Shown here: one piece after another, positions 2,268 through 48,283 of the stretch
How the letters are laid out: every line of letters begins with the position of its first letter
How positions within the stretch are numbered: the first letter of the stretch is position 1
Assembly: GCA_963920765.1 (NCBI GenBank)
Contig: OY987245.1
Location: forward strand, 8,510,727 to 8,574,726
Direction of reading: 5' to 3'
DNA length: 64,000 nt
Origin: Ulota crispa
Taxonomy: Eukaryota > Streptophyta > Bryopsida > Orthotrichales > Orthotrichaceae
Notes under the pieces: model-generated
The model's input: the letters and a program-made list of their open reading frames with translations, nothing else
Database searches by the model: none
Told to the model about the DNA's origin: nothing
Translations under genes and position numbers: made by a program

Positions 2268-3271
2268 TTGGCTGATAGTGACTTGGACCATGATTGGGAC
2301 CCGGCACTCTCCGACTTGGAAAGTGAGCAGGGCTCCATCTTGAGTGGGGCCAGCTCTATTGATCTACTTGAAGATGACCCCCTTGCCCTACTAGGTGAAA
2401 TAGGGGTTTACCCTTGCAGACTTGAACCAAAGACCAGTAACTTGGAGGAGAAATATTAGGACGCCAATTGGCATGCTTGGGCATGGACTCTCCAATAGTG
2501 CCGACCATTCACAGGGAAGACTCTAAGCCCTAGTGAGCATCTTCCTGCCAACACTCTCTTGATGCCCGTTGAGTACTTTGCCCTATTTTGGGATGAGACA
2601 TTGCAGCGGAAAATAGTGCGAGAAAGTAATTACTATGCAGAGTTTATTGATCTTGAGACTAGGAAGCACAAGGGGGGTGATTCTTCAGCCAAGCGCATCA
2701 CGCTTGAAGAGTTTAGACAGTTCACTGGCATTTGTTGCATTATGGATGTTAGGAAGCAGCCTAGCATTTTTTATTATTGGCAAAGGGGCAAGGAGCTTTA
2801 TACTGCAAAGACATGGCCAACACCATGCCTTGCTGACAATTTGAGTATATTTTATGTTGCCTACATATGACTTTGAGGTTTGAGTATGTCACTGACAAAA
2901 CCAGCCCTAGCTATGATCCAATTGGCAAATGTAGGTGGATTTTAGAGCACGTGGAGGGCAGGTTTCAGCGGTATTGGAACCTCTCTTTGTGTGTCATAGT
3001 TGATGAGTGCATGGTTGCTTACAATGGCCGCTTCTATTCCTTCAAGCAGTATCTTCCAGCAAAGCCAATTACTGATGGCATCAAGATTTGGGCTTTGGCG
3101 TGCTTTGTCACTAGTTACCTGTACAAGCTTGAGATATATGTTGGCAAAGACAACGGGCATCTTGGAGGATTAGCCTCCGTGCACATTGGCATGGCGGGGC
3201 AAGCTGTGCATCATTTGACTGCTAGCCTTGGAGGTCACTAGTACACTCTCACTAGTGATAAATATTTCACT
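2268..3271 (+). pseudogene. piggyBac transposase, N-terminal half (interrupted)
   Basis: This is the first half of a piggyBac (DDE_Tnp_1_7) transposase, which excises and inserts DNA at TTAA. An acidic leader (DSDLDHDWDPALSDLE) starts at 2268. From about 2559 the family N-terminus reads PVEYFALFWDETLQ and ESNYYAEF. From 2867 the catalytic core follows: RFEYVTDK, VDECMVAYNGR with a catalytic Asp, KQYLPAKPITDGIKIWAL, then LYKLEIYVGKDNGH. The frame runs on through an in-frame TAG at 3239 to YTLTSDKYFT, where it stops exactly at the left end of the 15.5 kb insertion. The remaining coding sequence resumes at 18747. Besides the insertion there are stops (for example after 2459) and at least one frame change near 2860, so the gene is dead. 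Family assignment is confident. Confidence 0.88.
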
Positions 3272-3291
3272 GGTGATTGCAAGAAACACTT
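3272..3291 (+). repeat. Left terminal inverted repeat of the 15.5 kb element
   Basis: GGTGATTGCAAGAAACACTT is the exact reverse complement of 18727-18746. Similarity stops abruptly after base 20. The base before it ends the piggyBac codon for Thr in KYFT. Confidence 0.9.
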
Positions 3292-5559
3292 CATTGTGTT
3301 CTCTCAAAACCAGTGTTTTTTGCTGTAGCGCTGCTAGTGCTGCGACGACTACAAGTACTGCACATCATTCTTGCAGTGCAGATCTTAACCATCCATCTTA
3401 TTGAAGATTTACTGCAATGCTAGCAAGTGGCTTTACATTAGTGGAGCCCTTTAATACCAATAGCTTCTATAGTTGATGGTGGCTTGGAGGGATCGGCACG
3501 TGGCACACAGCGGGCGACCATTCATCTATGGGAAACGTGGATGATATTCAAGTTTGGATAGCTTCCTGGTCACGGTGCAGGGGTCGAAAGTTTAGGGTTT
3601 TCACAATGCTGTCATACGGTTTGAAGTGCAGCTTGATGACTAATAGTGCTATTGCCAGCAACAAATTTTGTAACAAGCAATTTGGGGGTGCGCGGTTAAG
3701 GGTTTAGGGTTTAGCGGTTCACAATTTAGCACGTACAATGTTGTTGGTTCAGAGTTCAAGAGCCAAGATAGGGCACTGTTATAGGGATTGAGTCTCTTGC
3801 GTACCTTCAAGAGCGGCGTCGGAGATTGGTGGGGGTGGGGATTGCTCACTTTGTCTTCGGGGAGTGCGAGGCATGATTGTCTTTGCCAGAAAATCCGTTC
3901 CAATAATGACAAAGGTAAGCCCATACTGAAACCCTTGCTCCTGTCCTAGTTTCATGTTTTGAAAAAGAACTTTGTGCGGATTTAGGGTTTACAGTGAAAC
4001 ATTCTTGTCAATGCATTTGTAGTTACTTAGGGAAAAATGCTTGCCGCTGTGATCAAGTGTAGAATCCCTCCTCAACTAAGGTTTACAATTACTTTACAAT
4101 GACATTGGCCTGTTGCCGTAGGAGTCTTCACCGTGTCCATTGTTGCGCTCTGGAGTTTGCCCCCTGGTTTGTGGGGTAGTGCTATGCTGCTGGAGAACAA
4201 TGGGAGCTTCCTTCTAGAAAACGTGTAGATTGGAATTAGGGTGTCCTCTTCTATGGAATTTGCTTTGAATGTAGGGTTAGTCCTTGATGCAAGTGACAGC
4301 AGAGTGGTGGTTTAGGGGTTTAGGTACAACTAAATGTTGGGCGCCATATGTCTTTATAGATGCCCTCTGCATATTTTCTCCTTTTGTCCAAGTATAGTGC
4401 TTAGGGATTCTTCATATGCTGCCTATAGCTATCTTTTTAATTCAATTGGAATTCCGACCTCTCTAGTGAAAAGTGAGAGCAAAGAGCAGTCATAAACTCT
4501 TAAGCACCCATAGCAACACACACTGCTCTTTGAAGTATTTGCTATGTTTTTTTTCCTTTCCATAGAGATTTCTTGTCCAAATTTTTAAAATTCATTCAGA
4601 GGCAATGATGCCAATAATTCCGCTTTCAAAAACACCGGTGCTCTAACAAACCAGGTAGTTCCAAACAATAAATATAATTCCATTTACTACCACCAAACCC
4701 ACAATATAGAAACTAAGTTGAAACATTACACTTGAAGCAACAACCATGTATCAATAGTATTGTTGTCAAATCCTTCAAATGTTCATAACTAATTTTGGCT
4801 TACAACTACCCACTTAATTTGAAGAGAATGTCCTTGGTGTCCTCAAACATGAATCTCTTCTAGGATGCTACTGTTTGAATCATTGCAACAAGGCTAGAAC
4901 TTCCTAATGTACCACTGCATATGTATAAGGGTTTTTTTGATCAAACATAATTGAATACTACTCTTGCAAATGAAGGCATTGGAAAGTTTAGTTACACTTA
5001 CAAGAATAAGCTACATCTCTCAAAAATCTTAAACAATTAATCAAAATACCGATTCATGTCATACCTTGGAAGAACATGGTATTTTCCTATATAAATCATT
5101 GAACATACTAGCAACACAAACGACTATTCACTCCCATGAGAACCAGCTTTTTTCTTATAGAACACGTAGGGCACAGTATGATTATAATGGACATGACACC
5201 GTGATGCAACATGAATAGCATGCACATGCCAAATTTTGCAATGAAGAAATCTCATACTTGAATTCTGACATAAAGGTCATCTTAGGTTTTACATCACACC
5301 AAAAAATTACAATAGCTACTTACATTATTTACAACATTTTCCTACAAATACTGAATATCAATCTCTTCCCAATCTGATATGCACAATACAACTGTTGGTT
5401 TAGTGTTGTTTAAGTGTTCAAAGCCTAAAATTGCAGTTTCAGTCTTTACCATGCACCCTGGAGCCACACGTCCTACTGAAGAACCTTAATCTTCTCAACA
5501 ATTGCCTCAACTCCAGAACACTATAGCCTCCTCTCATACTTCAACCCCTAATCCACCGA
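3292..5559. other. Left subterminal region of the 15.5 kb element, no gene seen
   Basis: I see no coding region here. Telomere-like TTTAGGG or GGGTTTAGGG words recur at about 3591, 3695-3715, 3984 and 4313, in a T/G-rich stretch. From 4400 to 5560 the sequence is AT-rich without recognisable motifs. It may contain the promoter and 5' leader of the plus-strand gene. Confidence 0.4.
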
Positions 5560-6330
5560 TTGAGTAGTACATTGCCTTCCTCCCCAGTACTTAATATTGT
5601 ACTCATGCGGTACTCCTTTATGGTGTTCTAACAATAGCTGCTGTCATGACTCTAGTTGAGGGGCTGCTGCCATGTACATGGTATGCATTGTCATGTCTGT
5701 AGTACCGGCGCTAGTCTTATCAGTACTTTGGAACAAAAATGGTTCTCTCCAGATCTCAAAGTTTTGTTACTAGATAGCTGCTGATGGTCTTCCTACAGGT
5801 TGTAGTCAGATGATTGAATCCTGACCAAGTACTCAACCATACATAGTGGTACTGCTTCTCTTCTAGCCTGCTTTGTAGTGCTCCTGATCAGTACTAGGAA
5901 AAGACCTCAGGGCTTCTCTTTGTTCATGTGGTACTATTCTAGTCCTTCACAGTCAATATTCCCACCTACAAGTATCAAGAGTGCTTGTCCTACATCCTAT
6001 GCTACTTTTCCATTCTCGGCCGCTGCTATCAAGAGTCCCTCTCTTCTCTACCACTTGTATTGAAAGTAGCATTACACCGCGGCTACATATGTAAGGTACC
6101 CGCATTCCCAAGGACGCCTTGGCAATGTACTAGTACTTTCACTACATCCAGTGATACTGATATAAGAGACGCAAGTACCTTTAGTACTCTCTCCATCACT
6201 TCTAAATCCTACTTACTAACGTCATTAGTACCCACCGTAGCTTTGGTAATCATTGTTGCAAGTGCATGTGCAATACTTTTTAGTACTGCATGGGCACTTC
6301 CTATAGGCTTTAGTGGGCGGTTGTAGTCCT
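5560..6330. repeat. GTAC-rich island 1
   Basis: At least 16 GTAC tetramers, mostly as AGTACT, TAGTACC or GGTACT, fall in about 770 bp, where roughly three are expected by chance. The plus strand is pyrimidine-rich. The island lies just upstream of the plus-strand gene of the 15.5 kb element. GTAC is the core site of plant SBP/SPL-type transcription factors, so a regulatory array is possible but unproven. Confidence 0.55.
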
Positions 6331-6529
6331 ACGACGACCACTACACTATGCTACATGCACAAGCAAAAGCCATCAAAGGAGGTACCTATTGTCATGCTTG
6401 CATATGATTTTGTATATTCACTGTTGTGGCTAGTCCCCACTTGTCCAATGAAGGTAGTTTGTCATATTAGGCCAAGATTGCACTTTCTTTGATGCATTAG
6501 TCTTCTTTGCCGTTTCTCAGGGTGGTCAA

Positions 6530-9500
6530 TTGGATACAACCTCACGAGAACCCCGCAAATCTCATAAAGTGAAGCTTCATGCTAAAGGAGGACTTCATGA
6601 CGTCGCTGAGCAGGCCCGTTTGAAAAGCAGCATCTTTTGACAAATGCATTGCACACCACACTCGATGGCAATCATGGACGATTCTCGGAAACTTTTAAGA
6701 AGACGTTTTTGTTGAGGAGCAAGAACTCTGGGGATTTGGCGTCCTCTAGGTTAGAGACGCACTAGACAGCATCGACAACGTCCACCACAATTTTGGGTGA
6801 AGCATGGATGGGTACTGGAACCTCTGTAGAAGGCACAAATGGCACTTAGGGTGTTTACCATCCTAGACCTCGCTTGGCCCTACTGTTTCCTAGCATTCAC
6901 AGACATGACGACAACACCGTCAATGATGTTCAAGCGCAAGAACGGTATTCTAGAGGGCCTCCTTGCACCCCCGTGAAGTGGAGGCGGTTGAAGGGTGGAG
7001 TTGACGTTTCTTCTCACCCTTTTGCACAAGATAGTTGCAAACAAGAAAAGACAGGGAATGGTGGAATTGGGCAGTCAACCATATCTAATGCAACACGTGT
7101 ATGGCAAGAAAAACATCAGAGGAAAGCTGACTCCAACGTGTTTGACTACCACACAAAAGAAGAAGACGACAACGATGACGGCAACTCTTCCTTGGACAAA
7201 CTAGTCGACTCCCAAGTAACTTGCAATTTCAACTCTCTAAACACTCTTCCCTCTTTACATTGCCACTGTAGACAACAGGGAGACAATCAGTAGTTCTTGA
7301 GACTATGCTATTGTGTGGGTGGAGTTCACTAATTGCTCTTGCCATTGGTATCTTTGCAGCAGCCAAAGCGTGAGAAGAAGATCTACACCGCTGAACAATG
7401 CAGAAAGGCGTTGTAGGAACTTCAATTGCCGTTAAGGAGGCCACCTCGCATCCTCTCGAAGGAAGATTTTTGGAAGGAGTTCAACCTCAGCAGTGTCGGC
7501 ATCAATCCACACAAGCTAAAACTTGGTAAGCACATTCTTGCGTCTGAAGTTGAGGATGTTTTTGGGCCAGACAAGAACCGCAACGGCTACAATTTAGCAG
7601 ATAGACTACCTAACGCAGAGCGGCGCTAAGTGGAGGCCCTCTACTACCTATGTTACCAGAAGGAATTGCCATTCCATCATATTGCAAAGGAACTAGTGAT
7701 GGGGTGGGTACTGGAGCGCTGAAAAGGCAAGAAGATTGATTGGGCCGAGTTTGCTACTGAGACCAACCACGTCTAGCAGTGCAATTACCACATTCGTGTG
7801 AAGATGTGGCTCCTCTGCCTTCAATCAGCTGAGAAGAGCGACATAGTGGTAGCCACTGAATTGGACGCAATTATCCTAGGCAAGGCCGTTGGCAAGATCA
7901 AAGAAGTTGTCTTGAAGGGATTCTGCCACCATGGGGATGTAGGCTTTGTCATAGAGAACCAAAAGGCTCCTGAGTCAACCTTCACCATGCCAACGTTGGA
8001 CTTCAACATGTTGTCCTCTAGGTAATCACCCTCTTTGCCTTTGTGCTCAGTGGACGTAGTAATTGCCGTTGTTATTCCACATTGCGGCTTGAAATGAGGA
8101 ATTGGCGTTCTCTTATGGCGCAATCACCATTGGTTTTGGTGAACGTATTGTAGGAGCTTAGACATGGAGGCCTTACTTGATAAAGTTGAAATGGAGGTGG
8201 ATATCCTTGTCAAAGACGCCTCCGACATTGCAAACAGACAAGGAGGTGTCTTTCACTAGTGCAATTGTAAATCAGCTCATAAAACAATTTGCCAAGTTTG
8301 GAACCAATTTTGATCTTCAAGGAGGCAATGATTGGGAAGGATGTTGGGAGAAGGTTGTCAAAGACGGCTTCATGCATGACATGTTGCAAAAGAACATTGA
8401 CGAGCACGCCAACCTCTTAATACGGAAGCGGTTCCTTGATGTTGAGTAGATGTGTATCAGCCTTCGTTTGCAAGCCTTGAGCCATTACCTCATGGCACTC
8501 CAGGCCAAGCATGCAATGTTGCAGTCAGGCTGCATTGGCTGCGTTATGCATCCGGCACCCATTCTTGCACCTGGGCTTGATGTTCCCTTGATTCCGGACT
8601 TTGGAATAATGCCACCTACTCTTGTATGTGCCCTAAGCTCGGACGGCTTTCCATACAGGCACGCCCTCATCTGCAGCTGCAAGCACCTATACCATCTATG
8701 GTGTGCAGCCTTGTGGTTTCAAGATTCATCCAATTGCGTGGTGAGAAAGTGCGGACGCGTTTCACCAATGTGATTGAAAGCATGCGGGTTCAAAGGTTCC
8801 ATAGATGAAGATTAAAGCACAGCCACACGCGACAGCATCACTCCCACCGCTCACGTTGGAGGTTTTGACTTGAATTCTGCGGGTGCTCATCCGTCCATTG
8901 GTAATGAAAGAGTCTACATTGTAGCTTCGTCTATAACTTCCTCACATTGCGGCTTATGTGTCCATAGTATTGTTGAACCACCTTCTAGGCAGTTCTCAAG
9001 TACGTAGGAGGATGATTGTAGACGATTTGTGACAGTGTTCTGACATCCTTGTTGTGAGCCGCGGGACACGCATTTTTATATTTAGCTATGGTGAATTGCA
9101 TTTTTAGTACAACCAAGGTAAACCATGGAGTGATATCTTCCCTGGAAATGTATTAGATTGCAAACTACATCATTTTCTATTGCTAGTTTGACTAACATGT
9201 GTACTATAGAATTTCACATGAGTATGAAATGCAAGAAGTAGGCCTGCCTTGCACACGAGTAGCGTTAGTGCATTCTCCTTTCTTGTTGTAACTGTATTTT
9301 GTAGTAGGGGTGTCATTAACATGCGTATTAGGTATTTGACTGAACAATATGTTTTTATTTGTTGAGCAGGTTCACACTTGTTTGGGCATGGTGTAGGAAC
9401 CGCTTCTGTGTCCGGAAGTACATTCTCCACGTCTATTCCGGAGGCTGGCGACACAGCTAGGTTGGTTCCGGGGCAGCCAGCGTCACATGCCTTTGGGTCA

Positions 9501-12289
9501 GAGTTGTTGCAAGTATCCCTTGCATTACCTCCAACTTCCTTATACTCACCCCCGCATGCATGGTAGGTCTCGCCGGAAGCTGTGACGTCCCTCCATCACC
9601 GTTCACATCAGGTGTAGAGATTGCTACCACTCCACGCTCGTTGATAGACATTATCATCAATGGCGACGTTAATGGTGCATCTCATGGAGATGTTGAGGCC
9701 ATTGACGTACTGACAAGAGAAGAGTTGTCTATCCTGCATGCAGAGCTGGTGCCCAATGACATGCAGGTGGGTTTCTACTTGCTCCCACAAGTGCTTCTTG
9801 TTGTGTGGAATTTCACCCCCTCCTATAAAGGATGTCTGATTTAGTGCTCTTTTTTCTTGGTGATCGGCTCCAAGGTTTGCGCTCAGGCTGCTGTGGCATC
9901 ACCGAGAGTAGCAACAGCTCAATCCATGGAAGACTTCCCCCTCTGTGACCAACCTCCACCGCCCATAAAAGATGTGTACATGGAGTTCTTTGAGGAGGAA
10001 GCATAGAGAGAGTTGAATAAGCTGCAAACAAGTACGGAAACTTGCCGCTAAACTTCACATCTCTAACTTGCTTGTCTGGTTAATGCATTTGTAGGAAGGG
10101 AATATGACATCCATGCATGCGGTGTGGATTGTTGTAGGTCAAGACAAGGTGGAGGAAGTTTTGGCACATGCGGTAGCCGAAGACAGTGCCTTGGAAAGTG
10201 CACGTCTTTTGTTGCCAACTATAGCTCAACAATAGTTCAAAGGGCGTAGTTCAATGTAGTAGCAGTCCTTCTTGTTTGCAGCATGAACCTGCCCTGTCTA
10301 AGCGCAACAAATCACTTTGGTCGTTGAAGCAATCGCCAACTGGATCATCAATTCCAAAAATGAAGGGGCCTTGCGCAGTATGTGTACCTAGGAAAATGAA
10401 GGTAACAAAGAGGTGATTATGGTGTGGGGTTGTTTTTCATTGAATCTGCGAGTGTGGACATGACGCAAAGGTAGAGCACTTGGAACGTCGTACTGCAATC
10501 TTCAAGCGGTATTGCCCATGATTGCCCATTGGAAGTGCTGCAGTGATTGTAGGGAAGTTCTGCATTTTGTCTTTGTTTCTAGCCATTAAGGGCTCTTTTG
10601 AAATGGAATTGATATTTAGTTTTGCAAACACATCTTCTTGTCTCAGAAAATTTGAATGCGCCGTTGTCGTTGGCAACCTCTTGCAAACGTATTGGCGCTG
10701 TACCGTTCTAGCGCTTCCTGTAGACTTGCTATGTGGTATAGCATTTTGCTTGCATGTGGACAGAAACCGCCCCAATGTTCTACCTTTTGTGCTTGTCAAG
10801 CTTGGGTAGGGCTTGTTCTGGTCTTTCTCTATGCTTTTCCCATTCTCTTAAAAGTATATTATCAACACAAGACCGCAATGAGTTGGACTGCTCTCAAGAT
10901 CTTGAGAGCATTCCTATTCGCTACTCTTGGCGTGGTGGCATTGGTGAAGCCCCATATTGGGATGTTTCCTCTTACAATTACACGCTTTGTCCAATGCTTC
11001 ACTCCTCTGTATTGTCAAGAACAGTAGTCACATCTCCCTCTGTAGAGAACTTGTCCAGCTATAGAAGTTCTTGCACCAATTGAAGTGGCGGGTGCTGCTG
11101 CTGTATTTCCAATGGCGGCTGTGCGTACACCAAGGATGGCCGCTTCAAGGACCGTATTATCCAACAGGTACTCCCACCCCTTTGTAACTGCTCTTACATT
11201 ATTGTAGGAGGGATTGTGGTTCTGGCTCATGGGATTGTGGATAGCAATGTAGAATTTTATGAGTAGTAGAAAGCATGAAGGTGGTCGTCTATGTCCCCTT
11301 CTAATATCATCTAATTTTTTTGCAATTCTTGAAGTGCAGAGATGGAGGTAATCCCTGGACTGTCCATTGCTTGAGGGATTTTCTTTGCAGAGGTCATTGG
11401 AGCAGAGCTTGCCCCGGTCATGTGCAGCGTCTTTACATCAAGGAGTGCACGTTGGAGTGCCCATCGGAGTGCCCGTCAGAGTGCCATTGTAGCTCCAACT
11501 ATGGTAATTGCGTTATGCAACAAGGAATCACAGTGCCGCTTGAGGTGGGGATTATCAAGTTTTCTACCTTTCTGTATTGGTCAGCCTTTTTTGGTTTTGC
11601 TTTTCCAAGGTTGATAAATACTCATAATCCTGTGCGCTGTAGCTTTTCTATGGAAGCACTAAAAAGGGTTGGGGTGTTTGTATCCTCTAGCCGATTTGTA
11701 GAGGATGCTTTCTCTTTGAGTATGCTGGCAAAGTCATTGCAGACGCGGAGTTGTTTGCACGTGGAAAAAGGAGCGTGTACTCAGTATTGCTAGATGCGCA
11801 CTAGCAGTCCGAGTGCTCCAAGGGGGATGACAAGTTATTCTGCATTGATGCCAGATATAATACAAATGTAGCGCGGTGGATGAACCATAGGTATTCACTT
11901 ACGTTCAACCTCTTAGTGGAACATGTTGAATTGAACCCTTTCATGGTGTTGATTATGACCAGTGCTTGCAGATGCTCTGATGTGAACATCATGGACATGC
12001 CAGTCTACATGCAGAGTACTCAGCCAACACTATATCACGTAAGTACTAGGACATGTTGGAGAGTGTTTTCAGTGACCGATCAATTTGCATGGGGTAATTT
12101 TGTGTTCTGGTGTTGAAGGTTGTTCTTTTTTTTTGCAATGCAATGCAAGTTGCATTCTACGCAAACAAAGATATTGCACTCGGGGAGGAGCTAACTTTGG
12201 ATTATGGGGTTCAATTCAAAAACTCTCAATCTAGGAAAACTTTCCCTTTTGCTTGCGTTTGTGACAGTCCCTTCTGTAGGCAGTGTTAA
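6530..12289 (+). pseudogene. Decayed plus-strand gene ending in a SUV39-type SET domain
   Basis: This is a multi-exon gene inside the 15.5 kb element. Readable pieces in order: an acidic/basic region around 6874-7290 (HTKEEDDNDDGNSSLDKL); a conserved-looking block at 7360-8025 (WKEFNLSSVGINPHKLKLG, then VVATELDAIILGKAVGKIKE); a block at 8177-8770 ending in a Cys/His cluster (ICSCKHLYHLWC, CVVRKCG) that could bind zinc; a Ser/Thr/Pro-rich linker; and from 10877 a pre-SET/SET/post-SET methyltransferase domain. Many joints are plausible GT-AG introns. In-frame stops near 7627, 7721, 7773 and 8447 and at least one frame change show that it no longer encodes a full protein. The start is not fixed. 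The gene converges on the minus-strand gene, with about 480 bp between the two stops. Confidence 0.6.
10877..12289 (+). pseudogene. SUV39-type pre-SET/SET/post-SET methyltransferase domain
   Basis: This is the catalytic end of the plus-strand gene. H3K9 methyltransferases of this family transfer methyl groups from S-adenosylmethionine to histone H3 Lys9. Pre-SET pieces are LDCSQDLESIPIRYSW (10883) and KECTLECPSECPSECHCSS followed by NCVMQQGITVPLE (to 11544, with a GT donor next). SET pieces are KRVGVFVSSS (near 11664), FLFEYAGKVIADAELF, then FCIDARYNTNVARWMNH (to 11883). The last exon encodes VAFYANKDIALGEELTLDYG and the post-SET cysteines CVCDSPFCRQC before the stop at 12287. Order and spacing match the family. 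The conserved NHSC appears as NH-R-C if the acceptor before 11971 is used. A TAG at about 11803, a frame change near 11700 and an imperfect last intron phase argue that it is inactive. Confidence 0.8.
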
Positions 12290-12766
12290 GCACATTCAAG
12301 CTCCGACATATGGTACTCTTATAGGGAGAGGACATGCGCAAACATGGTTTCTTGGTTCTAGTCTGAGTACCGTTGGGGAATGCATGCACTTGGGGTTCCT
12401 GATACATGGAATGAAGAGGGAGTCATAGTCTATATTCCGATTGTTCATTCTGGGACTTAAAGGATCAGACCAATGTATTCCTCACGGTACTTGGTAGAAG
12501 CAACAACGGATAGTGTTTTAATAAACCTCAGACCTAACTATGTACTATAATTTATAGGATAAATTAAAAGAACTCTCGAGGATCGGATGTAATTTATAGG
12601 AAAGACAAATGAATTAAAGGCGTTGTATGGAAGCAGTCTTCATTGTAGACGGCTTAATGCAATTTTGAGGTGGGTCAGCATCACTTGATTGACATTGCAC
12701 ATTTGACTTCAAAAATGTTCTTTAAATGTCATAGAATCCTCACTACAAGTATTAAGTATTCCTACT
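12290..12766. other. Tail-to-tail spacer between the two genes of the 15.5 kb element
   Basis: No coding region is seen. The spacer separates the stop of the SET gene from the stop of the minus-strand gene and probably holds both poly(A) regions. Confidence 0.5.
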
Positions 12767-15700
12767 TCATTGGCAATTGTGGTACTCTTCTAACGCACAA
12801 GTAATGACATCAGCGCTCTTGGGTGGGAGAGAGTACACTGGATCACCACCCTTTACTCTATGCGCATGAGGTATCATTTGAAATTTACAAGCTAGTACTA
12901 TGTCAGTGTCTATGTGCCCTGCTCTTGAGTCCTTCAAGTACATGTAGTTGTGAGACCCTATTCGTCTCCACTTTTTATAGTACGTAGCAGTGATGATGGA
13001 GTTGCCTTGTTTCAAATTTTCCCCCCATGGAAATTGAAAATCTTCTTGTACAATGTGCTTTGCGGATTGGCATTGCAGTATGTAGAATGAAACTCCCTCT
13101 GCGTTGCTCGTTTCCGCAGGTATTGCAAAATTGTTGCCCGGCTAGACCAAGTCTGACATGTTTCCCTTGTTTTCTTTGTACTTCCAGTTCCCTTTGTCAT
13201 TGTTGTCTTCATTTTCTAGTACTTCTTGTGTGTAAGTGTTGTTAATCGGTTGAATCTTGTGGACCTTCCAGCACGGCACGTATGACTGCTGCTCACAAGT
13301 ACCAAAATCCTCTTCTAGACAAGGTTTGCAAAAGCAACTCCAAGGGCGGACCATGACCTAAGTTGGATCCCGAGCGTCTGGTGCAAAGACGGAGTGGAAT
13401 TTAGAAGACCCGAGTATTTGGTGACAGGCGTGCGCATGGCTGCGGTCAACCTTGTCGACTCCTACAAGATGAAAATATTGGTACGACCTGGAAGCAAAAA
13501 TAAAGAGTAAGTTAGCAGGTACGGGTAGTGGACTGAAATGTTTTGAGCATTGGTTAATATCGCAGTCAATATCTTCTAGGACATTGAACAAGCTTCTATC
13601 TTTTTTTACTGTAAGGAAAATGTGTAATTGTACATGGATTTAATTTTAATGTCCACCGACTTGTACCTTACAGGTCACTAACACCCCAGCTCATTTGCTA
13701 TTGGTATTTCTAGCTGAATGAGTTGTAATATTTGCATTGCAATGCAGATGTAGTTACTTCTGTTTCTACATTGTTTGTGTCGATAACATCTAACCAATAA
13801 TGTACGCCACCAATGTCATGTTGATGATTGAAACTATAGAATATTCATGCAAGTAGGATCCCAACTTGGTCAATTACAATTGCACTCTCATGTTTAGTGA
13901 AGGTCACTTGTATATAAAACAAGTAGATGATATAGTAATTGAAAATGTGAAACCTTTCTCAGTAACGGTCTCTAGCAATACACAAGACTTTGTTGTGCCA
14001 TAAATTATAAGTGTATTCAAAATAGTGACACTCATGGGTGTAGTGTATTTTAATTAAAATTTACCAATGTCACTTGTGAATCCCTAGCACTTTTACACAT
14101 TGGAAATTTTCTCTTTGTGACAAACAAAGAATGTGACAAAGAACGTGCAAACTACTTTAGGTAGAGAAGATCCCTTATTCCTCTTTTGGACTACTGTGTT
14201 TTCAACATACCTCATCCGTCCGTTTTGGACCGCCATTGGACCCCCCATAGTGTCGCCTAAGAAGGAGACGTATTGTCGGGCATTTTGAAGAAGTTGATCT
14301 AGATTTCTGAGCTGCTCTTGGCAAAGAGTCCTCTTTACAACTGCCCTAGCGCCATCCCATTCTCTTTTATCGTGACTAGAGCCGTAGAAGTTTCAAATCA
14401 TCCTACAACCTCCTGTAAGAGATGGGTACCAGGAATAAAGGACAAAGAGAAGAACCAGTCAAGAACCAGAACAATAGAAGATGAGAGCAAGGTCAAACAT
14501 GGGGGAGTCCACACAGGGGGAAGTACCTGACAACAAAATATAGAGACCTTGCACCTTTGAATTGAGCTGAGCAACCGTCACTAAAGACAAGGTGCATATC
14601 AAGGGTGCATCCACTTTCCACCAACCACCGCCAGTGTTGCAACATACAATGCTGTACGAATAAAATATCATGGGCTTTGTCATCAGATATCCAATAGTGA
14701 GTTTCACAAATGAGGATTGGATTGCTGCCGCTGTGGTCTTCTATAACTTCCATCCCGTACACAACTTGCACCTTTTTTGTGACCTGCGTTGACTGGTAAC
14801 ACATGGACTAGATTTTGTTTTGAACTTGAAAAGTATAGTTTTTAGCAAAGTCAATGTGCGTCAATATTGCACCCCGGGGCAAGCTCTCCTTTGCTAGCTT
14901 GGCTTGATTAGATTGCCAATGGGCACAAAAGTTGTGGATGACAAACGTTTGTAGATTTGGCCTCAAGAACTCTATGAATGCGGTAAAAAGAGTGTTGCGG
15001 ATGACCTCCTTGATTTGCTTTTGCGGCTTATTTAAATCAACGGCTTCAACAATTTTGTACTCAAATTTTTTCTACTTAATAAAACAATGGGGTCCTTCCA
15101 CTCTTTCAAGTGGGCAAAGACAAAATGTTTGGACGCCACAATGCTCACAAGATCCCATTAAGCAATTGCAAGGATCGTGAATAGTAACAGATCATCAAAC
15201 ACAATGGACTTGCCTTTGAAGTGGAGGAAACAACAAACAAGATGGTGTGATTACAGAAGCTGACCTTATGTTGTGGAACTTGGCGTCTTCTTGTTTCTCA
15301 CATAGGATGGACATCCACATTTTGGTCACACCGGAGAAACGACTAGCCCCAACGTGGCAACTTCCCTCAGCGCCTACACTACAAATACCACAACAACAAG
15401 TGCAATGGAATAGGATGTGCGCCCCTTGTTGTGGATCACGGAATGCATTCAAGGCTTGCAATAAGAATAGGATTTGAATGTGGTGCCGGCAGCAGCAAAC
15501 ATTTTGTTCTTTGCATCTGATAATGAATAATGGCCGCAAGTTGACAAAAGAGCGCATCATTATCTAGAATTTAGAATGACCTTGTCAAAACTATCAAAAA
15601 AATTGGCCTACAACGCCATCCACTTTGTGAACATTGGGTACTTGGGAGTAATACAAAGGACTGGAAGTATGACAAATAGTACTTGAACATAAACCTAGTA

Positions 15701-18114
15701 CATAAGCAATACTAAGAAATGCAAGCACAGTGTTAGTTGGTACTAGGGAAGGGATAGAGTTGAGTGTTTGTAGTACTATCCAGTGTAGCGGCGCTTATGT
15801 AGAAAATACTAGTACATTGGATGAAGTACTGCAAGGCCCTAGTAATGCTGGGCAATACTCAGAGTATGCACCATCACTGTGTGCAGCAGATCGGGAAATG
15901 GTCATACTACCCTCAACCTCCTGGAGAGGACTATGAAGATGTAGATGCACTTTAGAAGTAACTTGCTGTGAGGTGTGAGTACTATCTTCTAGCAACATGA
16001 CATAGTAATTACAGACCAGTATACAAGAGAAGTAGAAACGGGTGGAAGTACTATAGTCAATATTGGCACGTGAACTCAATATTGACATAGTACTAGATAA
16101 TGCAAGCATGTTGTTAGTGGGTACTAGAGAAAGGACAAGGGAGACTATTCCTACTATTGGCCATGACGTGCTGCGCATACGTAGATTGTACTAGTACATG
16201 GAGAGTACTGTCTTTCTGCAATGACAACGTTGTGCACCGCTCACAATATGCATCTTCAGTGTAGGCGATAGTCTACTAAGCGGTTCTAATACCCTGACTA
16301 ACAAGAGAGGACAGCTGGAGGAAAAGTATGCAGAGGTACTTCAAAAGTATCCCCGCTGTGCAGTGTCAATTCTATCTCCCAGCCGGAGGAAAAACTGAAT
16401 GCCCACTAGTACTTTGCAAGGTGGCCAGGTTTGCAACAGTAATACTATCCATCGTCCGCAAGAGCTAGGAGGACAAAGCAGAACTGGTCTTCATCAAAGA
16501 TAATCATGCCAAGGTACCACATAGTATTCATTTCCACTTGAGGGCTGCATTTCAGGTTGTGAATCATTGTTACGGTTATAGAAGTCAATCATGTCTAGAA
16601 AATATTCGTAACTCTAAAGATGTATGTAGCAATAGGAGTGAGAGCATGTAGTAGGGACGCAGTGCTATGCGGTACACCATAAACCCTTGGAATGCCACTA
16701 GGAGGTATTCACCCGCATACAACATGTACCTAATACATGGTGTATGTAATGTGGACATGTCTTCTATTTGTAGTATCGTAGATTGCAGTTCTGAGAGCAT
16801 AGCACAGATAGTGCATGATACTGACAAGCCTATCAAAGCGTTCAGAAGTTATTGTATGCAGCAAAGGCATGATACAAACAAGAGCAGTGGAACAGAGAGA
16901 ACGTGGGTAGATCATGAGCCCAAAAAGAGAGGACTGAATACTGGGTAAGATGAAATGCGTTATAGTTATGTGAAGTGGAGTTGGTTTCAAGCAAATTAAA
17001 CTAACTACGGAAGATTAGCCCCGCAGTGCAGAATGCAAAGACTATGCACTCTCTAACTGAATCAGGACATGTACTAAAAAGGTAATGCAGAACCGCAATT
17101 GCTACCATTTAGAGAAGCCATTGCGTAAGTGTACTCAGAAGATTGAAATTGTTGTATACCTGGCTTTCCATTAGTAAAGGGCAGCATGTCGTTCATACTG
17201 GCTTCGCTTAAGTCTCTTCTTCTGCACTTGCTTCCAATTGGAACTAACTCTAGTCTCATCAGTCCACCAAGCAATCTCGGCAGCCTACACTTCCTCTAGA
17301 ATATTGCTGTCATGCTTCTTCTTGCATGGAATTTTAAAACGGAATGTTGTTTGGGTCTAGCTTCTTCAAGCCTACGCATTGCTAAGTCCACATTTTGCTT
17401 CCGAGTCCCTAAAATTTTGTGGAATTGACTAGAGTTGCAATCCCATTCCAATACAACCGCTTCCAGGATCGTGCACTTTCGAGCCAACATACCACTACAG
17501 TGTGGGATTTTCATCACTTGCAAGTCAAGCCTAATATTTTGCAAAATGTCATGCTGGGCTCTCACGTCTTTTGGAGTGGGGTAGTAATCCGAGAGCAACA
17601 TTTGGATTGTCTAGTTCTTGAACACTATGTCCAGCACGGCTGCCCTCAACTCCTGGTCAGGTAAATGTTCCAAGTGGTAGATCAAGTCCCTTGACAATTC
17701 TGCAGCTTGTTGGTGTAGTGTGGCATGAAATGGGACAGAATTTCCATCCTCCAACACTATGTGACTTTGCTCCCGCAATCGTTGGCAATACCAGCGCTGC
17801 TTATCCCTCCATTGTCTTTGCCTCCTGTCCTCGGATATGCGCTCCATTTCTTGCCTTGTCCTGGGCTCTAGACGCACCCCTCTGGCGCTGCGTGATGCCA
17901 TGGATCCGTTGCAGGAGGCACAGCATGACAATTCTAACCTACCTCCTACGCCTACAGTTGAAGTGTAAACAGAATGCTGGAGAAGTTCCAAGAGCAAAAC
18001 CAAACGGCACCTCCTCGGCAAAGGGCGTTTGAAGATCGGAGCCACTCTGAAGTAGTTCCTGTCGAGGAAGACGACAACAGGAGTCCAACTTCCAATAACA
18101 GTCATTGAATTCAT
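12767..18114 (-). pseudogene. Decayed transposase-like gene (DFAKNY / SDGCSAQFK family)
   Basis: The minus strand encodes a long multi-exon protein. In order from 18114: a basic, Gln/Arg-rich N-terminus (RQEMERISEDRRQRQWRDKQ); RKCTILEAVVLEWD and RKQNVDLAMRRLEEARPK (about 17500-17370); WWTDETRVSSNWKQVQKKR (about 17230); RCKEQNVCCCRHHIQILF (15510); CTCCCGICSVGAEGSCH; KMWMSILCEKQEDAKFHN; CLMGSCEHCGVQTFCLCPLE; LTHIDFAKNYTFQVQ (about 14850); ETHYWISDDKAHDILFVQH; LVFSDGCSAQFKGARSLYF (14600); NFYGSSHDKREWDGARAVVK (about 14380); and VMVRPWSCFCKPCLEEDFGT (13350). From memory, uncharacterised eukaryotic proteins share DFSENY, SDDLxHD, SDGCxxQYK and HGKGxxDGxG in this order. The acidic residues suggest an RNase-H-like DDE nuclease, which is inference. 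Stops break several pieces, so it is not functional as it stands. Confidence 0.62.
15620..16520. repeat. GTAC-rich island 2, within the minus-strand gene
   Basis: About 17 GTAC tetramers lie in 900 bp, mostly AGTACT or TAGTAC. Here the plus strand is purine-rich, the mirror of island 1, so each island is pyrimidine-rich when read in the direction of its own gene. It sits between coding blocks of the minus-strand gene, probably in an intron. Confidence 0.55.
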
Positions 18115-18726
18115 GGATGAAAAAGGGTAGGTTACCCGTGGACAATGTCAAGGGTCAGTAGTACTTTGTAGTGCTAGTAGTGGCAGCAGAGAGTTGTGGA
18201 CGCCTTTGGAGCTAAAATTACCAAAAATTGGGTTTTTTCATGTTTTGAATTTTAGTAATTCCAAAAACACTCCAAAAATTATTCCAAAAATTGGCCATTG
18301 TAGTCCTTCTTGAGATACTTACAGTGATCTAGTTACTTTTTTGAGTAAGTTTTTTTTGTTTTTTGCAATGCTACCCAACAAACACCCACTTTGAGAGCAT
18401 GTAGAAGGCACACAATTCAAAGTTTAAGAAAACCCTCCTACATGTTCATGTAAGACTATGTGTTAAACAACATTCTTGATTTTTGAGACAAAATTTGAAT
18501 TTTTGGGTCACCAATAGTACTAGAAACCCTTGAAATGGCAAAGGTAGACACCTAATTGGGCCCTCTCTGAAAATAGTAAATTAATTTTTAAATTCCCAAA
18601 AAAAAACATAATGTGCCAAACTCCCACGTGTACCTTCCCTAAAAATTTCAGCTGAAAATCTTTTTGGACACAAAAGACATGATCAAAAAACCACCGTGCA
18701 AAGGCCAAGGGGACAAAAAATAGTAC
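18115..18726. other. Right subterminal region of the 15.5 kb element
   Basis: This is AT-rich sequence with short repeats of ccaaaaatt around 18220-18290. No gene is visible. It lies between the start of the minus-strand gene and the right inverted repeat, so it probably contains that gene's promoter. Confidence 0.4.
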
Positions 18727-18746
18727 AAGTGTTTCTTGCAATCACC
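18727..18746 (-). repeat. Right terminal inverted repeat of the 15.5 kb element
   Basis: AAGTGTTTCTTGCAATCACC is the perfect inverse of 3272-3291. Three codons later the piggyBac frame resumes as SPYLFDNLLTQGF. Confidence 0.9.
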
Positions 18747-19499
18747 TCCACATCCCCTTATCTCTTTGACAACTTGCTTACTCAAGGATTCTACGCTGTT
18801 GGCACTACTTGCAAGCAATGAAAAGGCTTCCCCACAAGCCTAGGCGTTGCGGGCAATGAGCCCCGCAAAACACTGCATATTTGAGTTCACAAAGATAAGA
18901 AGATGGCTGTAATCCTTTGGCAAGATACAAAATGGGTCTATTTCTTAGCCACAGCTACTGATCCTATGATTCCTAGTGGAGTTGTGATGAACAAGGTGTT
19001 AAGGCAAAAGATTGCAGAAGTCTTGACATCCCCAATCCAAATCCTGTATTCACAGAACATGGGCGGAGTTGACGTAGCCGATTAGAACCGGTCTTATTAT
19101 AGTATACAGATAGCCACCAAGAAATGGTGGCATTGTGTATTTTTCTTCTGCCTAGACTCATTGTTGGCTAATCCTTTCACTATGCACAAGGAGACGTCAA
19201 AGAGGTTGCTTGAGAGACCCATGACTCATAAAGAATTTCAACTTTGTTTAGCATACGCTCTCATGGGACGGCCTTACCGAGCAGACTCTGGAGGGTGCAG
19301 TAGAAGACCTAGATGGGAGCTCCCACCGCAGCCAATTTTGTTGCTCCTGTGCCACTTCTCGGAGAAGATAGCATTGTGCCAAGTTTGCTATGTGTGCAAG
19401 CGGAGGACCTTCTCAATTTGCCGCCAATGCGATGAGGTTTGCCTTTGCACATCCTCAGATTGTTTCCAATTTTTCTACTCCAAGAACCGTCCGCTGTAG
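18747..19499 (+). pseudogene. piggyBac transposase, C-terminal half
   Basis: The reading frame cut at 3271 resumes here with TSPYLFDNLLTQGFYAVGTT. After a stop near 18818 it continues with KMAVILWQDTKWVYFLATAT, then YSQNMGGVDVAD, the classic MGGVDxxD motif with the last catalytic Asp. A TAG at 19084 replaces the expected Gln; NRSYYSIQIATKKWWHCVFF follows. The protein ends in a cysteine-rich zinc-binding tail (CQVCYVCKRRTFSICRQC, CLCTSSDC) with a stop at 19497. Length and motif order fit full piggyBac transposases once the insertion is set aside. It is dead: the gene is split and carries several stops. Confidence 0.9.
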
Positions 19500-21740: not shown

Positions 21741-23412
21741 CCCCTAAAGGACCAAACCCTTTTTTTTTGCCAAAATTACACAAAACTATCACTTCTAGGG
21801 GATGACTAGAATGATAGATTTTTTTCTTATTTTTTGGAAATCCAACCGTAGGATCTTGACTTAGACTAGGAAAGGTACTTGTGGGAAAAAAAATCAAGTC
21901 ATTATAAATGGAGAGGATTGAGGGAGATATTTATATCTCAAGGGGAAAAAAAGGTTCTTCTCATTGCTGCCCAAAAATTTCAGAAGCCTTTGACAACTCT
22001 TATACAAATTTTTTTGCTCTACCCAAAGTTGCAATATCATTTCACCATGTACGAGATCAAGTTAGATATATGTTGGAGAATTCTCAAATCAATTGGAATT
22101 GTACAACACATGGAAAAAAAAAGTAAGTAAAGGAAGTAGAGAGTAAGTAAAGGAAGTAGAGAGTAAGTGAAATCACTTAATTGTTAAGAATTTATTTATT
22201 GAAATAAAAAATGTAAATTTCAATGATTATAATGTTGTAATATACAATTTACTTCCTTAGGTTTAGTTTTTTTTCCAAAATATTGAAAATTGAGTAGAAA
22301 AAAGGACTTCAAAGTTTATCTTAACCCCCAAAGGACCAACTGTCTCCTTAATGAACAAATGGGATCTTGGGCATGTACTTACAACTAAACTTTGTATGAT
22401 TTTTAGAAATTTTTATTGAAAATGGGGAATTCTAAGATTTATGTGGGCATCTAGTGTTTTCTTCATTCTAGAATTTTTTGAAGAAGTTGAAAATGAATTC
22501 ATGGGAAAATGTTGAGATCGGGCAGCCCAAAAATTCTTTAAAAATTACATTTAAAAAAAATAAAAAAATAAAAAAGGTTCTTTAGACTTACATACAGGTG
22601 GAGAGCTTTGAATCATTCAATTTTCATTAATGAGATGAAAGTCATGAGAAGTTTTTGTTTGCAGGTAGGTGCAATTTTGAGAGAAACCATACCTACCGCA
22701 AACAAAAACTTCTCATAACTTTCATCTCATCAATGAAAATTGAATGATTCAAAGCTCCACACTTATATATAAGTCTAAAGAACCTATTTCAATTTTTTTT
22801 TTAAATGTAACTTTTAAAAATTGTTTAGGTTGCCCAATCTGGACCTTTTTCCATAAACTCATTTTTTACTTTTTCAAGAAATGTTAAAATGAAGAAAATT
22901 TAGATGCCCACGTAGATCTTTGAATTCACCATCTTCCATAAAAATGTCAAAAAATCATACAAAGTATTTCAATTGTAAGTACATGCCCAAATTCTTATTT
23001 GTTCCCTAAGGAGATAGTTGGTCCTTTGGGGGTTAAAGTAGAGAATTCATAAGTATTGGCAAACAAAAACTCCTCATAACATTCATGTTTTTGATTGAAA
23101 TTGAATGATTCAAAGCTTTTCACATATAAAAAAATGTAAAGAAGCAATTCCAAATTTTTCTTTTAAAAAATGTGAATTTTAAAAAAGTTTTTTGGGTTGC
23201 TTGGATGGGTAGTCCTCCCCAAATTTTCATCAATCCTTGCATAACTTCTTTGTCAAATGTCAAAATGAAGAAAAATTTAGATGCCCACATAAATCTCTAA
23301 ATTCTGCATCTTCATTAAAAGTTTCAAAAAATCTCACAAAGTAGCTTATCCAAAAGTACATGCCCAAAATCTCATTTGTCCCCCGCGAGGGCAATGATCC
23401 TTTAGGGGTTAA
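21737..23412. mobile_element. Composite piggyBac-type MITE, TTAA-flanked
   Basis: The left end is TTAACCCCTAAAGGACCA at 21737. The right end is TGATCCTTTAGGGG then TTAA at 23412. Inside lies a complete foldback MITE (22321-23036). The stretch 23037-23412 is another copy of that MITE's right arm, so the block probably grew by insertion of related elements into each other. It has no coding capacity. Confidence 0.65.
22321..23036. mobile_element. Foldback MITE with ~340-bp arms, TTAA-flanked
   Basis: The two arms, 22321 to about 22672 and about 22686 to 23036, are long imperfect inverted repeats. They begin TTAACCCCCAAAGGACCAAC and end with its complement, and they meet near 22679. The RNA would fold into a hairpin of roughly 340 bp. 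Confidence 0.82.
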
Positions 23413-24271: not shown

Positions 24272-28451
<4,180 letters not shown>

Positions 28452-30089: not shown

Positions 30090-30205
30090 AGCCGGGTGCT
30101 CAGCACAGAGCGAACTATTCTTTCGCCTTTTACTAAAGAATACCGTGCGCTGGGTACACCTGCCGGCATACCCCTTTTTTTGGACTGCCCCTCACGGGGC
30201 CCAAC
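30090..30205 (+). ncRNA. U5 spliceosomal snRNA
   Basis: U5 snRNA is a core spliceosome RNA; its loop 1 aligns the two exons. The hallmark loop 1 with its stem, CTTTCGCCTTTTACTAAAG, is at 30120-30138. Flanks pair into the long 5' stem (gccgggtg near 30090 with cacctgccggc near 30157-30167). An Sm-binding site cccctttttttggact (30171-30186) follows, then a 3' stem-loop gcccctcacggggc (30187-30200). Order and size (about 115 nt) match known U5. A TATA box sits about 30 bp upstream. Both ends are estimated to within a few bases. Confidence 0.92.
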
Positions 30206-30307
30206 CAATCGAAAACCCTAACCAGGAAATATTCAGCAGGTGAACTTTTTGGGTAGCACTGGAGGGTTCACAGGGAGCTTGCCCCCGAACAGCCACGTGC
30301 AGCCGAA

Positions 30308-30517
30308 GTGCAGCCCAGGGTTTTTACCTGATTTAGGGTGCAGCCCAGGGTTTTTACCTGATTTAGGGTGCAGCCCAGGGTTTTTACCTGATTTAGGGTG
30401 CAGCCCAGGGTTTTTACCTGATTTAGGGTGCAGCCTAGGGTTTTTACCTGATTTAGGGTGCAGCCCAGGGTTTTTACCTGATTTAGGGTGCAGCCCAGGG
30501 TTTTTACCTGATTTAGG
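30308..30517. repeat. 30-bp tandem repeat, seven copies
   Basis: The unit begins gtgcagcccagggtttttac and ends ctgatttagg. Seven head-to-tail copies are nearly identical; copy five has one C-to-T change. Because 30 is divisible by 3 the array stays open in frame (CSPGFLPDLG), but there is no other sign of coding. It begins about 100 bp after U5. Confidence 0.9.
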
Positions 30518-31344
30518 GTTTAGTTGTTTCTTATTGTTTTTGTGTTCAGTTTCAGCCCTTGCGACTTGGAGTTCTCTACTACATGTTTAGAGTTGGATCT
30601 CCTTTTGCAACTTCTATCAAATTTTTATCACATTCTTTTAAAATTTATTCTCTAGTTTTTGTTTTTGTGCTGTTCATTTCTTGTTTATCTTTTTTTTTCA
30701 TGAAGTTCTATTACTGTAAGAATATTCAAACAGAGTAAGGAGTATGCAATTCTCATGATGCATTTTGAAGCTTATGTTTTACTTCCATTTGTTGTCTACA
30801 TTAAAGGTTGAATTTAATCTATAAGGGCCAAAGTTTACTTCGTTAGGGTAGTACAACCGCTCACTTTCCCAAATGAGCTTTGTCTGTACATGTTCTTATT
30901 CATAGCCTTTTAGTAATGTACATTGGACATGCATTTGAGGAGGCGGGCAGTTTTAGAGCCCTATGGCCTTTCCACTTCAAAATTTCATAACTAACTCCAC
31001 AAAGTTTCAAAAATTATGAAAAAACTTGGGCTAGATGCCAATTCCTCTTGTCTTTCAAGTAAAACTCACCAAAAACTATTTCAAAAATTTCCACCTCCCA
31101 AAATTCAGTTTTAGCCCTTAGATGGTTGGGTTTTGAGTGTCTTACCTTAGCTTCAAAGGGGTAAAACCAGAGCAGAATTAATGTTTGAGAGGGGTCCCGT
31201 ACGTGAGGCTGGGCTCTCCCACGTACGAGCCCTCAGCCCTCAAAATGCCTCCAAAAAAATCGGATCTGGAACCAAAAGTGCAAAATATGGTGACATGTGC
31301 GTGTACCAACTAGGTGTTACAAATGATAATCGCTATTGTACTGT

Positions 31345-46500: not shown

Positions 46501-48283
46501 CTAGTTATGAGAAAGTTATGGACAATTTTTTTTTCCGGGCAACTCAAGCATCTTCTTGAAAAAATAACTTATAAACTTCATTTTTGAATGCAGCTTTAAC
46601 ATTTTTTCAAAAAAAATTGTTGGAGAGGGTGAAGTTTGCTTTCTAGAACAATTTCACCATTGGGATTATTGCATTTCAATTCCATTGCAAGGTTATTAGC
46701 AATTTAAGTTTTTCTTCAATCTCATACCTTCCTGTACCTAATGTTTTCTTAAAGAATGAAAATTAAGAATTCTTTTTTGAAATTTTTTCCCAAGATTCCC
46801 AACTCAACTTCCCACCATGCAAAAATAGAATTCCAAACTCTGTGGTGCAAAAATTTTAATATAAAAATGTTCAAAGTTAAAAAATCTAGTCAAGCAAGGT
46901 GCAAAAAAAATTGTTTTTTCCTTTTTAAATGCAAATATCTTCCAATCTGTGCGGTCAAAGTTCTTGAGTTTTGTATGACACATTCTTATAATAGTCTAGC
47001 ACAAGATCCTACAATCAAATATGCAAAATGCCTGATTTTCAAACTTTTTTACTCTTTGCCATAGAGGTGGCAACTTTGAGTGTTTTTTGACAAAATAAAG
47101 GCCATGGTCCTTTAGAGGTTAATTCAAGCTCCAACATTTTTTTGGGTACACGTGGCCTCACCTGAGAGGAGGAATTTGAGAGGGAAAAAATCTTAGTGGC
47201 TTATGATACCTTCGAATCTGGTTTAAGGTAACTTTTTGGGTTTAAGGTTGAGTACAAAATGGTACCCCTGTTTTGCCCAATTTCACCTAATATGGCTATT
47301 ATAGCAAGTATTTTAACCATGCCTAAAAGGTTCAAATGGTAACACTACAGTAATCATCTTTGCATTTTTTTCCAAAAGCACATCTTATTTCCCTTACAAT
47401 AGGTTGGTATGCATCCACTTTGTAATGAAACTCTTCCACAAAAAAGAGTCCCGGACTTCCTAAAAGGTACAAAGGGGCTTATGGCAAGCGACACAAAGAA
47501 ATCAGACTTTTGACACCGTAACAATCAAAAGGGAGCATCTTGATGCTTGAAAAAGGAAGAGAGCGAGGGTAAAAGTCAACTGCCGAGTTCTAACTTTGAA
47601 TTTGCAACATTTGAGAACGCCCTCATGCTAGCGCAAAAGAAGGAGATGAACTTAACAAGTATATCACAAACACAGACTATCACAGCAGCAGTTACACCCG
47701 TGGTATGTCATTTGATTTCAAACAACTCCTCTCAATACTGAAATAAAAAGAGAGACAATAGTTAAAGACCCTGAAAAAACTCAACTCATACCTGAAATGC
47801 ACGACCTAAAACTGTTTCTCTTACAAGGGCAAAGTAGTAACAATCGCTCAAAAAGCCCGGCATCAGAAAGTCGACCAACCACACTTCGTTCAGTGCAGTT
47901 CCTTAAATGCCATGGTTGTGGAAAGAGAGGGCATTATAAAAGTGACTGTCCAGAAGCTGAAAAGACTACAACACCAAATCCTGCTCGTCTTGCAGAGGTG
48001 AGCTTGCTTCAACTTGTCGGTGATAGCAGAGTGCATATAATCGATCCCGAGGTGATGAATACCAAGAGAGGACGACCTCACAAAGAGAAATTGGAGATCA
48101 AATCGGTATGTTATCGTACCTCAAAGGGGCATAAACAGGATTGGGAAGGAAGGAAACGGGTCGACCAACGGCTTTATGGTAAAGATGCGCAGCCAAAGCG
48201 GCAAAGATGCCGTCCTCACAAGGATAATGGTAGAGCACCACGCTCTTCCGTGGTGGCTCACTCGTAACCATGCGCATTGCCAT
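43561..48283 (-). CDS. DHH/DHHA1-family phosphoesterase
   Basis: DHH phosphoesterases hydrolyse phosphodiester or pyrophosphate bonds using two Mn ions; the substrate of this plant group is unknown to me. Minus-strand exons: 48283-48120, 45734-45636, 45145-44815, 44670-44536, 44103-44021, 43942-43738 and 43653-43561. All joints are GT-AG with consistent phase, giving 369 residues. Motif I is VVLYHYPCEDGIFAALAAHL. Motif II is FYLLDFAGPQGF. The DHH motif is VVVLDHHKTALETLP. Motif IV is VQDKDLWTW. The linker holds LDPKVLIKKGKVS, then NLGKGKFGQCL and LRSEIGNQLAAKSKKQGLR. The DHHA1 part has IGAVVYVEEALK and SLRSIGDADTS. The final GGGH-type motif is degenerate (GRHPAWTSNFSFS). Intron 1 is 2.4 kb and holds nested mobile DNA. 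No second copy of this gene exists in the duplicated block downstream. Confidence 0.86.
46113..47295. mobile_element. Inverted-repeat element carrying a nested MITE
   Basis: The left end CCATATTAGGTAAATTGGGA mirrors the right end CCCAATTTCACCTAATATGG, with aaaacagg continuing the match inside. At the left an 18-bp piece (ggtaaattgggaaaaaca) is doubled. A complete TTAA element is inserted within it. It lies in intron 1 of the DHH gene. The superfamily is unknown. Confidence 0.65.
46195..47122. mobile_element. piggyBac-type MITE nested in DHH intron 1
   Basis: TTAACTCCTAAAGGACCAT on the left and ATGGTCCTTTAGAGGTTAA on the right form near-perfect inverted ends with a TTAA duplication. It is 928 bp, AT-rich and without coding capacity. 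Confidence 0.78.
47400..48060 (+). mobile_element. LTR-retrotransposon gag fossil
   Basis: This is a broken remnant of a gag-like region on the plus strand, in intron 1 of the DHH gene and antisense to it. The recognisable part is one CCHC zinc knuckle (CHGCGKRGHYKSDC) preceded by a Ser/Lys-rich linker, the usual layout of Ty3- or Ty1-type gag ends. No pol region or LTRs were found, so it is a fragment, clearly old, with several breaks. The exact family is uncertain. Confidence 0.5.

Follow-up and report, generated by a model that had tools for sequence, protein, structure and literature searches.

A perfect 20-bp inverted repeat at positions 3272-3291 and 18727-18746 bounds a unit of 15,475 bp (ca. 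15.5 kb) in the 64-kb stretch of DNA that was analyzed, hereafter called the window. Between these ends the unit holds a SET gene of apparent SUV39/G9a class on the plus strand (10.88-12.29 kb), which perhaps starts near 6.85 kb, and a large gene in convergent orientation on the minus strand (18.15-12.77 kb). This pairing had been proposed in an earlier inspection of the letters alone (the sequence-only reading) and it agrees with the positions of two motifs of the large gene, SDGC near 14580 and DFAKNY near 14850, both on the minus strand. The coordinates of all features are collected in Table 1.

Table 1. Features of the unit and of its insertion site (window positions; expected GTAC counts were derived from base composition).
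Feature	Position	Strand	Remarks
piggyBac-type transposase pseudogene, 5' part, insertion target	2499..3271	+	two frames
TTCACT, left copy of candidate degraded 6-bp target-site duplication	3266..3271		sequence and alignment surplus
Left terminal inverted repeat (TIR), GGTGATTGCAAGAAACACTT	3272..3291	+	exact 20-mer
Left GTAC array	5540..6320		18 GTAC in 781 bp, 2.8 expected
Coding remains 5' of SET (separate gene or N-terminal part)	7351..8022	+	4 in-frame stops
Further coding remains ending in weak RING-like match (Pfam E 0.014, under cut-off)	8252..8808	+	2 in-frame stops
Pre-SET-like region, first part	10880..11165	+	1 TGA
Pre-SET-like region, second part, cysteine cluster	11401..11547	+	
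SET domain, first part (GWGV, EYAGKVI, DARYNTNVARWMNH)	11652..11888	+	two TAG
SET domain end (GEELTLDYG) and post-SET	12149..12289	+	TAA at end
C-terminal coding part of partner gene	12769..13480	-	2 TAG inside
Next coding part of partner gene (SSHDKREWDGARAVVKR)	14203..14380	-	
Partner gene core (putative transposase), DFAKNY and FSDGCSAQFK	14496..15149	-	2 TAG
Right GTAC array, mirror position	15650..16430		15 GTAC in 781 bp, 2.8 expected
Coding remains, perhaps 5' part of partner gene (joining inferred)	17155..18147	-	2 TAG
Right terminal inverted repeat	18727..18746	-	exact copy of left TIR
TCCACA, right copy of candidate duplication	18747..18752		4/6 identical to left
piggyBac-type transposase pseudogene, 3' part	18747..19499	+	Pfam/PDB match of joined flanks

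Ends and insertion site

The terminal 20-mer GGTGATTGCAAGAAACACTT occurred exactly twice in the 64 kb, in inverted orientation, and no further match with up to three mismatches was found elsewhere in the window. Shuffled sequences contained it 0.02 times on average, and two or more copies arose in 1 of 100 shuffles. When the left part of the unit (3272-7000) was compared with the right part (14901-18746) by short-word blastn, the TIR was the sole strong match (E 1.2e-5; runner-up E 0.045). The termini read GG..CC. Searches for other copies or fragments within the window returned four blastn matches of 19-26 nt at E 1 (E 0.18-0.63) and none by tblastx at E 1e-3, and the exact TIR had 0 matches in IMG/VR. 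The unit is known here from a single copy.

The unit interrupts a piggyBac-type frame exactly at its TIR ends. The left and right flanks, when joined, matched the Pfam family DDE_Tnp_1_7 with an E-value of 1.3e-48, and over 255 residues they matched the solved transposases piggyBat (9.9e-9) and piggyBac (2.7e-5). That the flanks at 2499-3271 and 18747-19499 are the halves of one piggyBac-type transposase is the strongest sign that the repeat delimits an insertion. The TIR-bounded structure is real, and both the ends given in the sequence-only reading and its view that they enclose one insertion were confirmed by the exact inverted 20-mer, by the coincidence of the ends with the frame break and by the single match of the joined flanks.

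The joined flank protein carried two surplus residues in both piggyBac-family alignments, with the gap placed 2 residues beyond the junction in one and 4 in the other; since other gaps lie nearby, we regard this evidence as moderate. This surplus of about six nucleotides is compatible with a degraded 6-bp target-site duplication. Identity of at least 4/6 between the candidate copies is expected by chance in ca. 4% of cases (binomial estimate by hand).

The piggyBac-type pseudogene, which lies in a probable plant genome, has a cysteine-rich end; such ends are also typical of piggyBac proteins. Several other features were observed in the window. Dense inverted and direct repeats with a G+C content of 0.30 occupy 22321-23383; among them are six inverted pairs, 65-137 nt per arm and 72-90% complementary. 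A 627-codon open frame with recurring motifs lies at 24445-26325; it matched nothing in Pfam at E 0.5 and is not known as a gene. A full-length match to U5 spliceosomal RNA (Rfam, 86.9 bits) lies at 30090-30202, with a repeat-bearing ORF shortly after it (30222-30587), and an ORF at 47716-48264, whose match to a zinc knuckle falls slightly short of Pfam's cut-off, is perhaps the remnant of a retroelement gag.

The SET gene

When all six frames were scanned against Pfam (3300-18200 for the plus frames, 4000-18700 for the minus frames, stops written as X), the SET domain appeared in two of them, at E-values of 0.0021 and 0.02, neither of which passes Pfam's cut-off. The other four frames gave no match at E 0.1. 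When we joined the SET pieces the Pfam SET match reached 2.9e-13; no Pre-SET match was obtained with the joined protein at E 0.5. Among the best 60 of 90 PDB sequences under E 0.001, H3K9 enzymes were on top, namely EHMT2/G9a (4.4e-25), EHMT1 (3.3e-22) and Clr4 (1.8e-16), followed by DIM-5 (3.4e-14) and SUV39H2 (8.8e-14). Below these came SETMAR (1.1e-13), the H3K36 enzyme SETD2 (7.4e-13) and plant SUVH6 (1.7e-11). The EHMT2 alignment covered residues 53-277 of the 279 in the joined protein, from pre-SET through post-SET. These similarities suggest that the gene belongs to the SUV39/KMT1 class and is nearer to EHMT than to SUVH, a hit list being something other than a phylogeny; the earlier description as a SUV39-type SET gene is borne out by the Pfam and EHMT2 scores. 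Because SETD2 outscores SUVH6, the list is no proof of an H3K9 target.

After ARWM the SET frame continues as N-H-R-Y and not as NHSC, and 3 in-frame stops interrupt the 269 codons chosen for the remains. Neither an intact NHSC motif nor an open frame was found in the SET gene, and judged from its reading frame this copy encodes no working enzyme. A GT-AG intron read from the sequence at about 12039-12149 would set the last SET part apart from what precedes it, and such an intron would argue for capture of the SET gene at the DNA level rather than as a retrocopy. The coding remains at 7351-8808 may belong to the SET protein. No relatives of the SET protein, of the protein encoded by these upstream remains or of the partner gene were confirmed in IMG/VR.

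The convergent partner gene

The coding remains of the partner gene run on the minus strand from 18147 down to 12769, where a TGA is its probable end. FSDGCSAQFK lies near 14585 and SSHDKREWDG near 14380. The DFAKNY and FSDG blocks resemble what we take to be the catalytic blocks of DDE transposases. No match to the gene was found in Pfam, either in the six-frame scan or with the joined pieces, and the best E-values in PHROGs (0.11), NCBIfam (0.054, far below the cut-off) and the PDB (0.96) gave none either. The six frames also contained no Pfam match at E 0.1 to a MULE-type transposase or to a Harbinger-type (PHIS) DDE transposase, and decay could hide a divergent example of the latter. A single-sequence AlphaFold model of the partner core had a pLDDT of 36.7, which makes it useless and of no weight for the fold, and no relatives of the core were confirmed in prokaryote genomes.

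By resemblance of these motifs the partner gene is probably the DDE-type transposase of the element. The sequence-only reading had called it a large transposase-like gene, which is a fair description; the name transposase itself was not confirmed by Pfam, PHROGs, NCBIfam or the PDB. The lack of a match in all four libraries would also suit a partner gene that is no transposase, in which case the unit would be non-autonomous, moved by another element and loaded with two captured genes. With the DFAKNY and FSDG blocks speaking against it, we give this little credence.

GTAC arrays and integrity of the unit

Two arrays of the tetranucleotide GTAC, the core of plant SBP-box binding sites, lie inside the unit and are the densest 800-bp stretches in the 64 kb. 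The extended motif TAGTAC/GTACTA occurs 36 times in the unit (mean 12.6 and maximum 24 in 500 second-order shuffles), and its densest 1200 bp contain 14 occurrences against a shuffle maximum of 9. The center of the left array is 2653 bp from the left end and that of the right array 2702 bp from the right, which puts them in mirror positions to within 49 bp. When two clusters were placed uniformly, such placement was matched in 0.6% of trials (p about 0.006); the motif and the array bounds had been chosen from the data before testing, so the odds are optimistic. The left array precedes the plus-strand remains and the right array is located between the 17155-18147 piece and the partner gene core. 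Through this symmetry the inner genes are linked to the outer TIRs.

The same layout bears on whether the SET gene was a mere passenger, that is, a host SUV39-class gene or gene fragment that was taken up once, as in Pack-type elements, and never served the element. Plant TIR elements commonly capture genes, and the single known copy with its broken genes would fit such an event. Nevertheless, the SET remains run from the pre-SET region to the terminal stop with few interruptions (3 in the 269 codons), and the mirror arrays enclose both the plus-strand genes and the partner core, which suggests an integrated layout. We consider passenger capture somewhat unlikely.

Alternatively, the SET gene, perhaps along with the 10 kb enclosed by the arrays, could be a separate element nested in the TIR unit, and the arrays could then lie close to the ends of that inner element. 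Inverted pairs of at least 11 bp that enclose the SET region numbered 28, compared to a mean of 13.4 and a maximum of 25 in 100 shuffles, and this excess weighs mildly against a single unit. At least two of these enclosing pairs fall in the GTAC arrays. An imperfect 18-bp inverted pair (6123/15802) and the SET stretch, where CWG loss is lowest among the parts of the unit (see below), point the same way. Yet just one of the 28 pairs, of 11 bp at 6393/16110, had a flanking duplication of at least 3 bp (4 bp in length), and 49 of the 100 shuffles reached at least 3 bp and 18 at least 4 bp. The 18-bp pair had no flanking duplication, and a single 14-bp direct repeat encloses the region. A separate SET insertion is what the sequence-only reading had named as refuting it; we looked for one and found no convincing ends of its own. 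Nesting therefore appears quite improbable to us.

Sequence decay

The chosen coding stretches contain 20 stop codons (13 TAG, 6 TGA and 1 TAA), a tally that leaves out the piggyBac region 2499-2836. In the unit's own genes TAG accounts for 11 of 15 stops, leaving out the TGA at 12769. Neither the in-frame stops of both genes nor the failure of the libraries to recognize the partner gene had figured in the sequence-only reading. At the TAG in the piggyBac-type frame (VDVAD*NRSYY) both solved relatives have Q. Relative to first-order expectation the unit had ratios of 0.65/0.62 for CAG/CTG, 1.28/1.21 for TAG/CTA and 1.23/1.25 for CAA/TTG. CAG/CTG stood at 0.68/0.61 in one flank, 0.45/0.51 in the other and 0.77/0.73 elsewhere in the window; the depletion is window-wide, and the unit shows no more of it than its flanks do. 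In the open frame at 24445-26325 (1,881 bp) it was 1.06/1.10, a contrast to which coding bias may add. The CWG share was highest in the stretch with the upstream remains and the SET gene (0.459) and ranged from 0.356 to 0.418 in the left end, the 3' half of the partner gene, the right end and the piggyBac flanks. The high share of the SET stretch could reflect younger sequence or coding bias.

A changed genetic code in which TAG stands for glutamine was considered and rejected. The depletion of both CAG and CTG together with the excess of TAG and CTA indicates a change at the level of the DNA and not recoding, and TGA and TAA stops occur as well. Fungal-type RIP, whose sequence preference is expected to deplete CAA/TTG, was thought unlikely since CAA/TTG was not depleted. 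The trinucleotide ratios and the stop codons suggest that the decay is due to losses at methylated CHG sites, which would point to a plant host.

Comparison with known elements

The sequence-only reading knew of no described DNA transposon with this pair of cargo genes. As a claim of novel cargo this gave way to a precedent: according to PMC12730594, which cites Kojima and Jurka (Repbase Reports 2014), HarbingerS and MuDR DNA transposons of Phytophthora carry SET methyltransferase genes. Like the unit, these are DNA transposons with a SET histone methyltransferase gene. The unit appears to be set apart from them by its probable plant host, by its paired GTAC arrays and by the lack of a Pfam match to a Harbinger or MuDR transposase in the six frames scanned. 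According to PMC10045372, the duplications of MuDR (with IS256) are 4-10 bp, a range that includes the candidate 6-bp duplication, which thus does not separate the unit from MuDR.

Two other groups were considered and rejected by their termini. According to PMC10045372, IS3EU/GingerRoot elements have 6-bp duplications, which the unit may share, and mostly TA..TA termini in contrast to its GG..CC. The CMCT clade (EnSpm, Plavaka, Lanisha and others), which is also characterized by C(2)C and H(3-4)H motifs between the second D and the last E, has according to PMC12730594 2-5 bp duplications and mostly CA..TG termini, again different from GG..CC.

Enzymes acting on epigenetic marks have been found in TIR elements before: TET/JBP carried by fungal TIR DNA transposons is the subject of PMC12730594 (2025). 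TET/JBP acts to remove a DNA mark, whereas a SUV39-class enzyme of the unit would add a silencing mark. Charophyte and dinoflagellate retrotransposons encode cytosine DNA methyltransferases (PMC5890265) and resemble the unit as mobile elements with a silencing methyltransferase, the difference being retrotransposon and DNA methylation on one side and DNA transposon and histone methylation on the other; a term search of that paper found none of six SET or H3K9 terms. Among the literature matches listed, a scope outside which most subscription papers fall, none described a SUV39-class gene carried by a DNA transposon of a plant. SETMAR, one of the PDB matches of the joined SET protein (E 1.1e-13), likewise brings SET and transposase together; it is a domesticated primate fusion of a SET gene to a mariner transposase and not cargo in an element. 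That the element is of an entirely new kind is not upheld, and the make-up of the unit appears to differ from that of the reported SET elements.

Proposed origin and significance

We favor the reading, with a probability of roughly 60%, that the unit is an old, dead copy of a large cut-and-paste plant DNA transposon with two convergent genes, a captured SET gene and a partner that is probably the transposase. The sequence itself shows the ends, the broken piggyBac frame, the SET homology, the arrays and the decay, whereas transposase function, the 6-bp duplication, gene capture, H3K9 as target and a benefit to the element are inferences. An element with 20-bp TIRs and two GTAC-rich arrays in mirror positions would have landed in an older piggyBac pseudogene, probably with a 6-bp target duplication. 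Its SUV39/G9a-class SET gene was probably captured from a host gene at the DNA level, introns included. While intact, the product of this gene would most likely have methylated H3K9 in chromatin on or around the element and so kept the element's own or competing copies in check. Once the copy was silenced, it would have been worn down by CHG methylation, chiefly through conversion of CAG to TAG.

The role proposed for the TET/JBP elements of fungi is the removal of silencing marks, and an H3K9 writer would pose the question why a parasite writes its own silencing mark. Candidate benefits are self-control of copy number, silencing of rivals and steering into heterochromatin. Going further, the unit could represent a plant DNA-transposon lineage in which an unclassified transposase goes together with an H3K9 methyltransferase gene as stable cargo and with paired GTAC arrays controlling the element's genes, a proposal that we hold to be unlikely on present evidence. 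If it were true, a mobile element would write the silencing mark of its host and feed the H3K9-CHG methylation loop that erodes its own copies.
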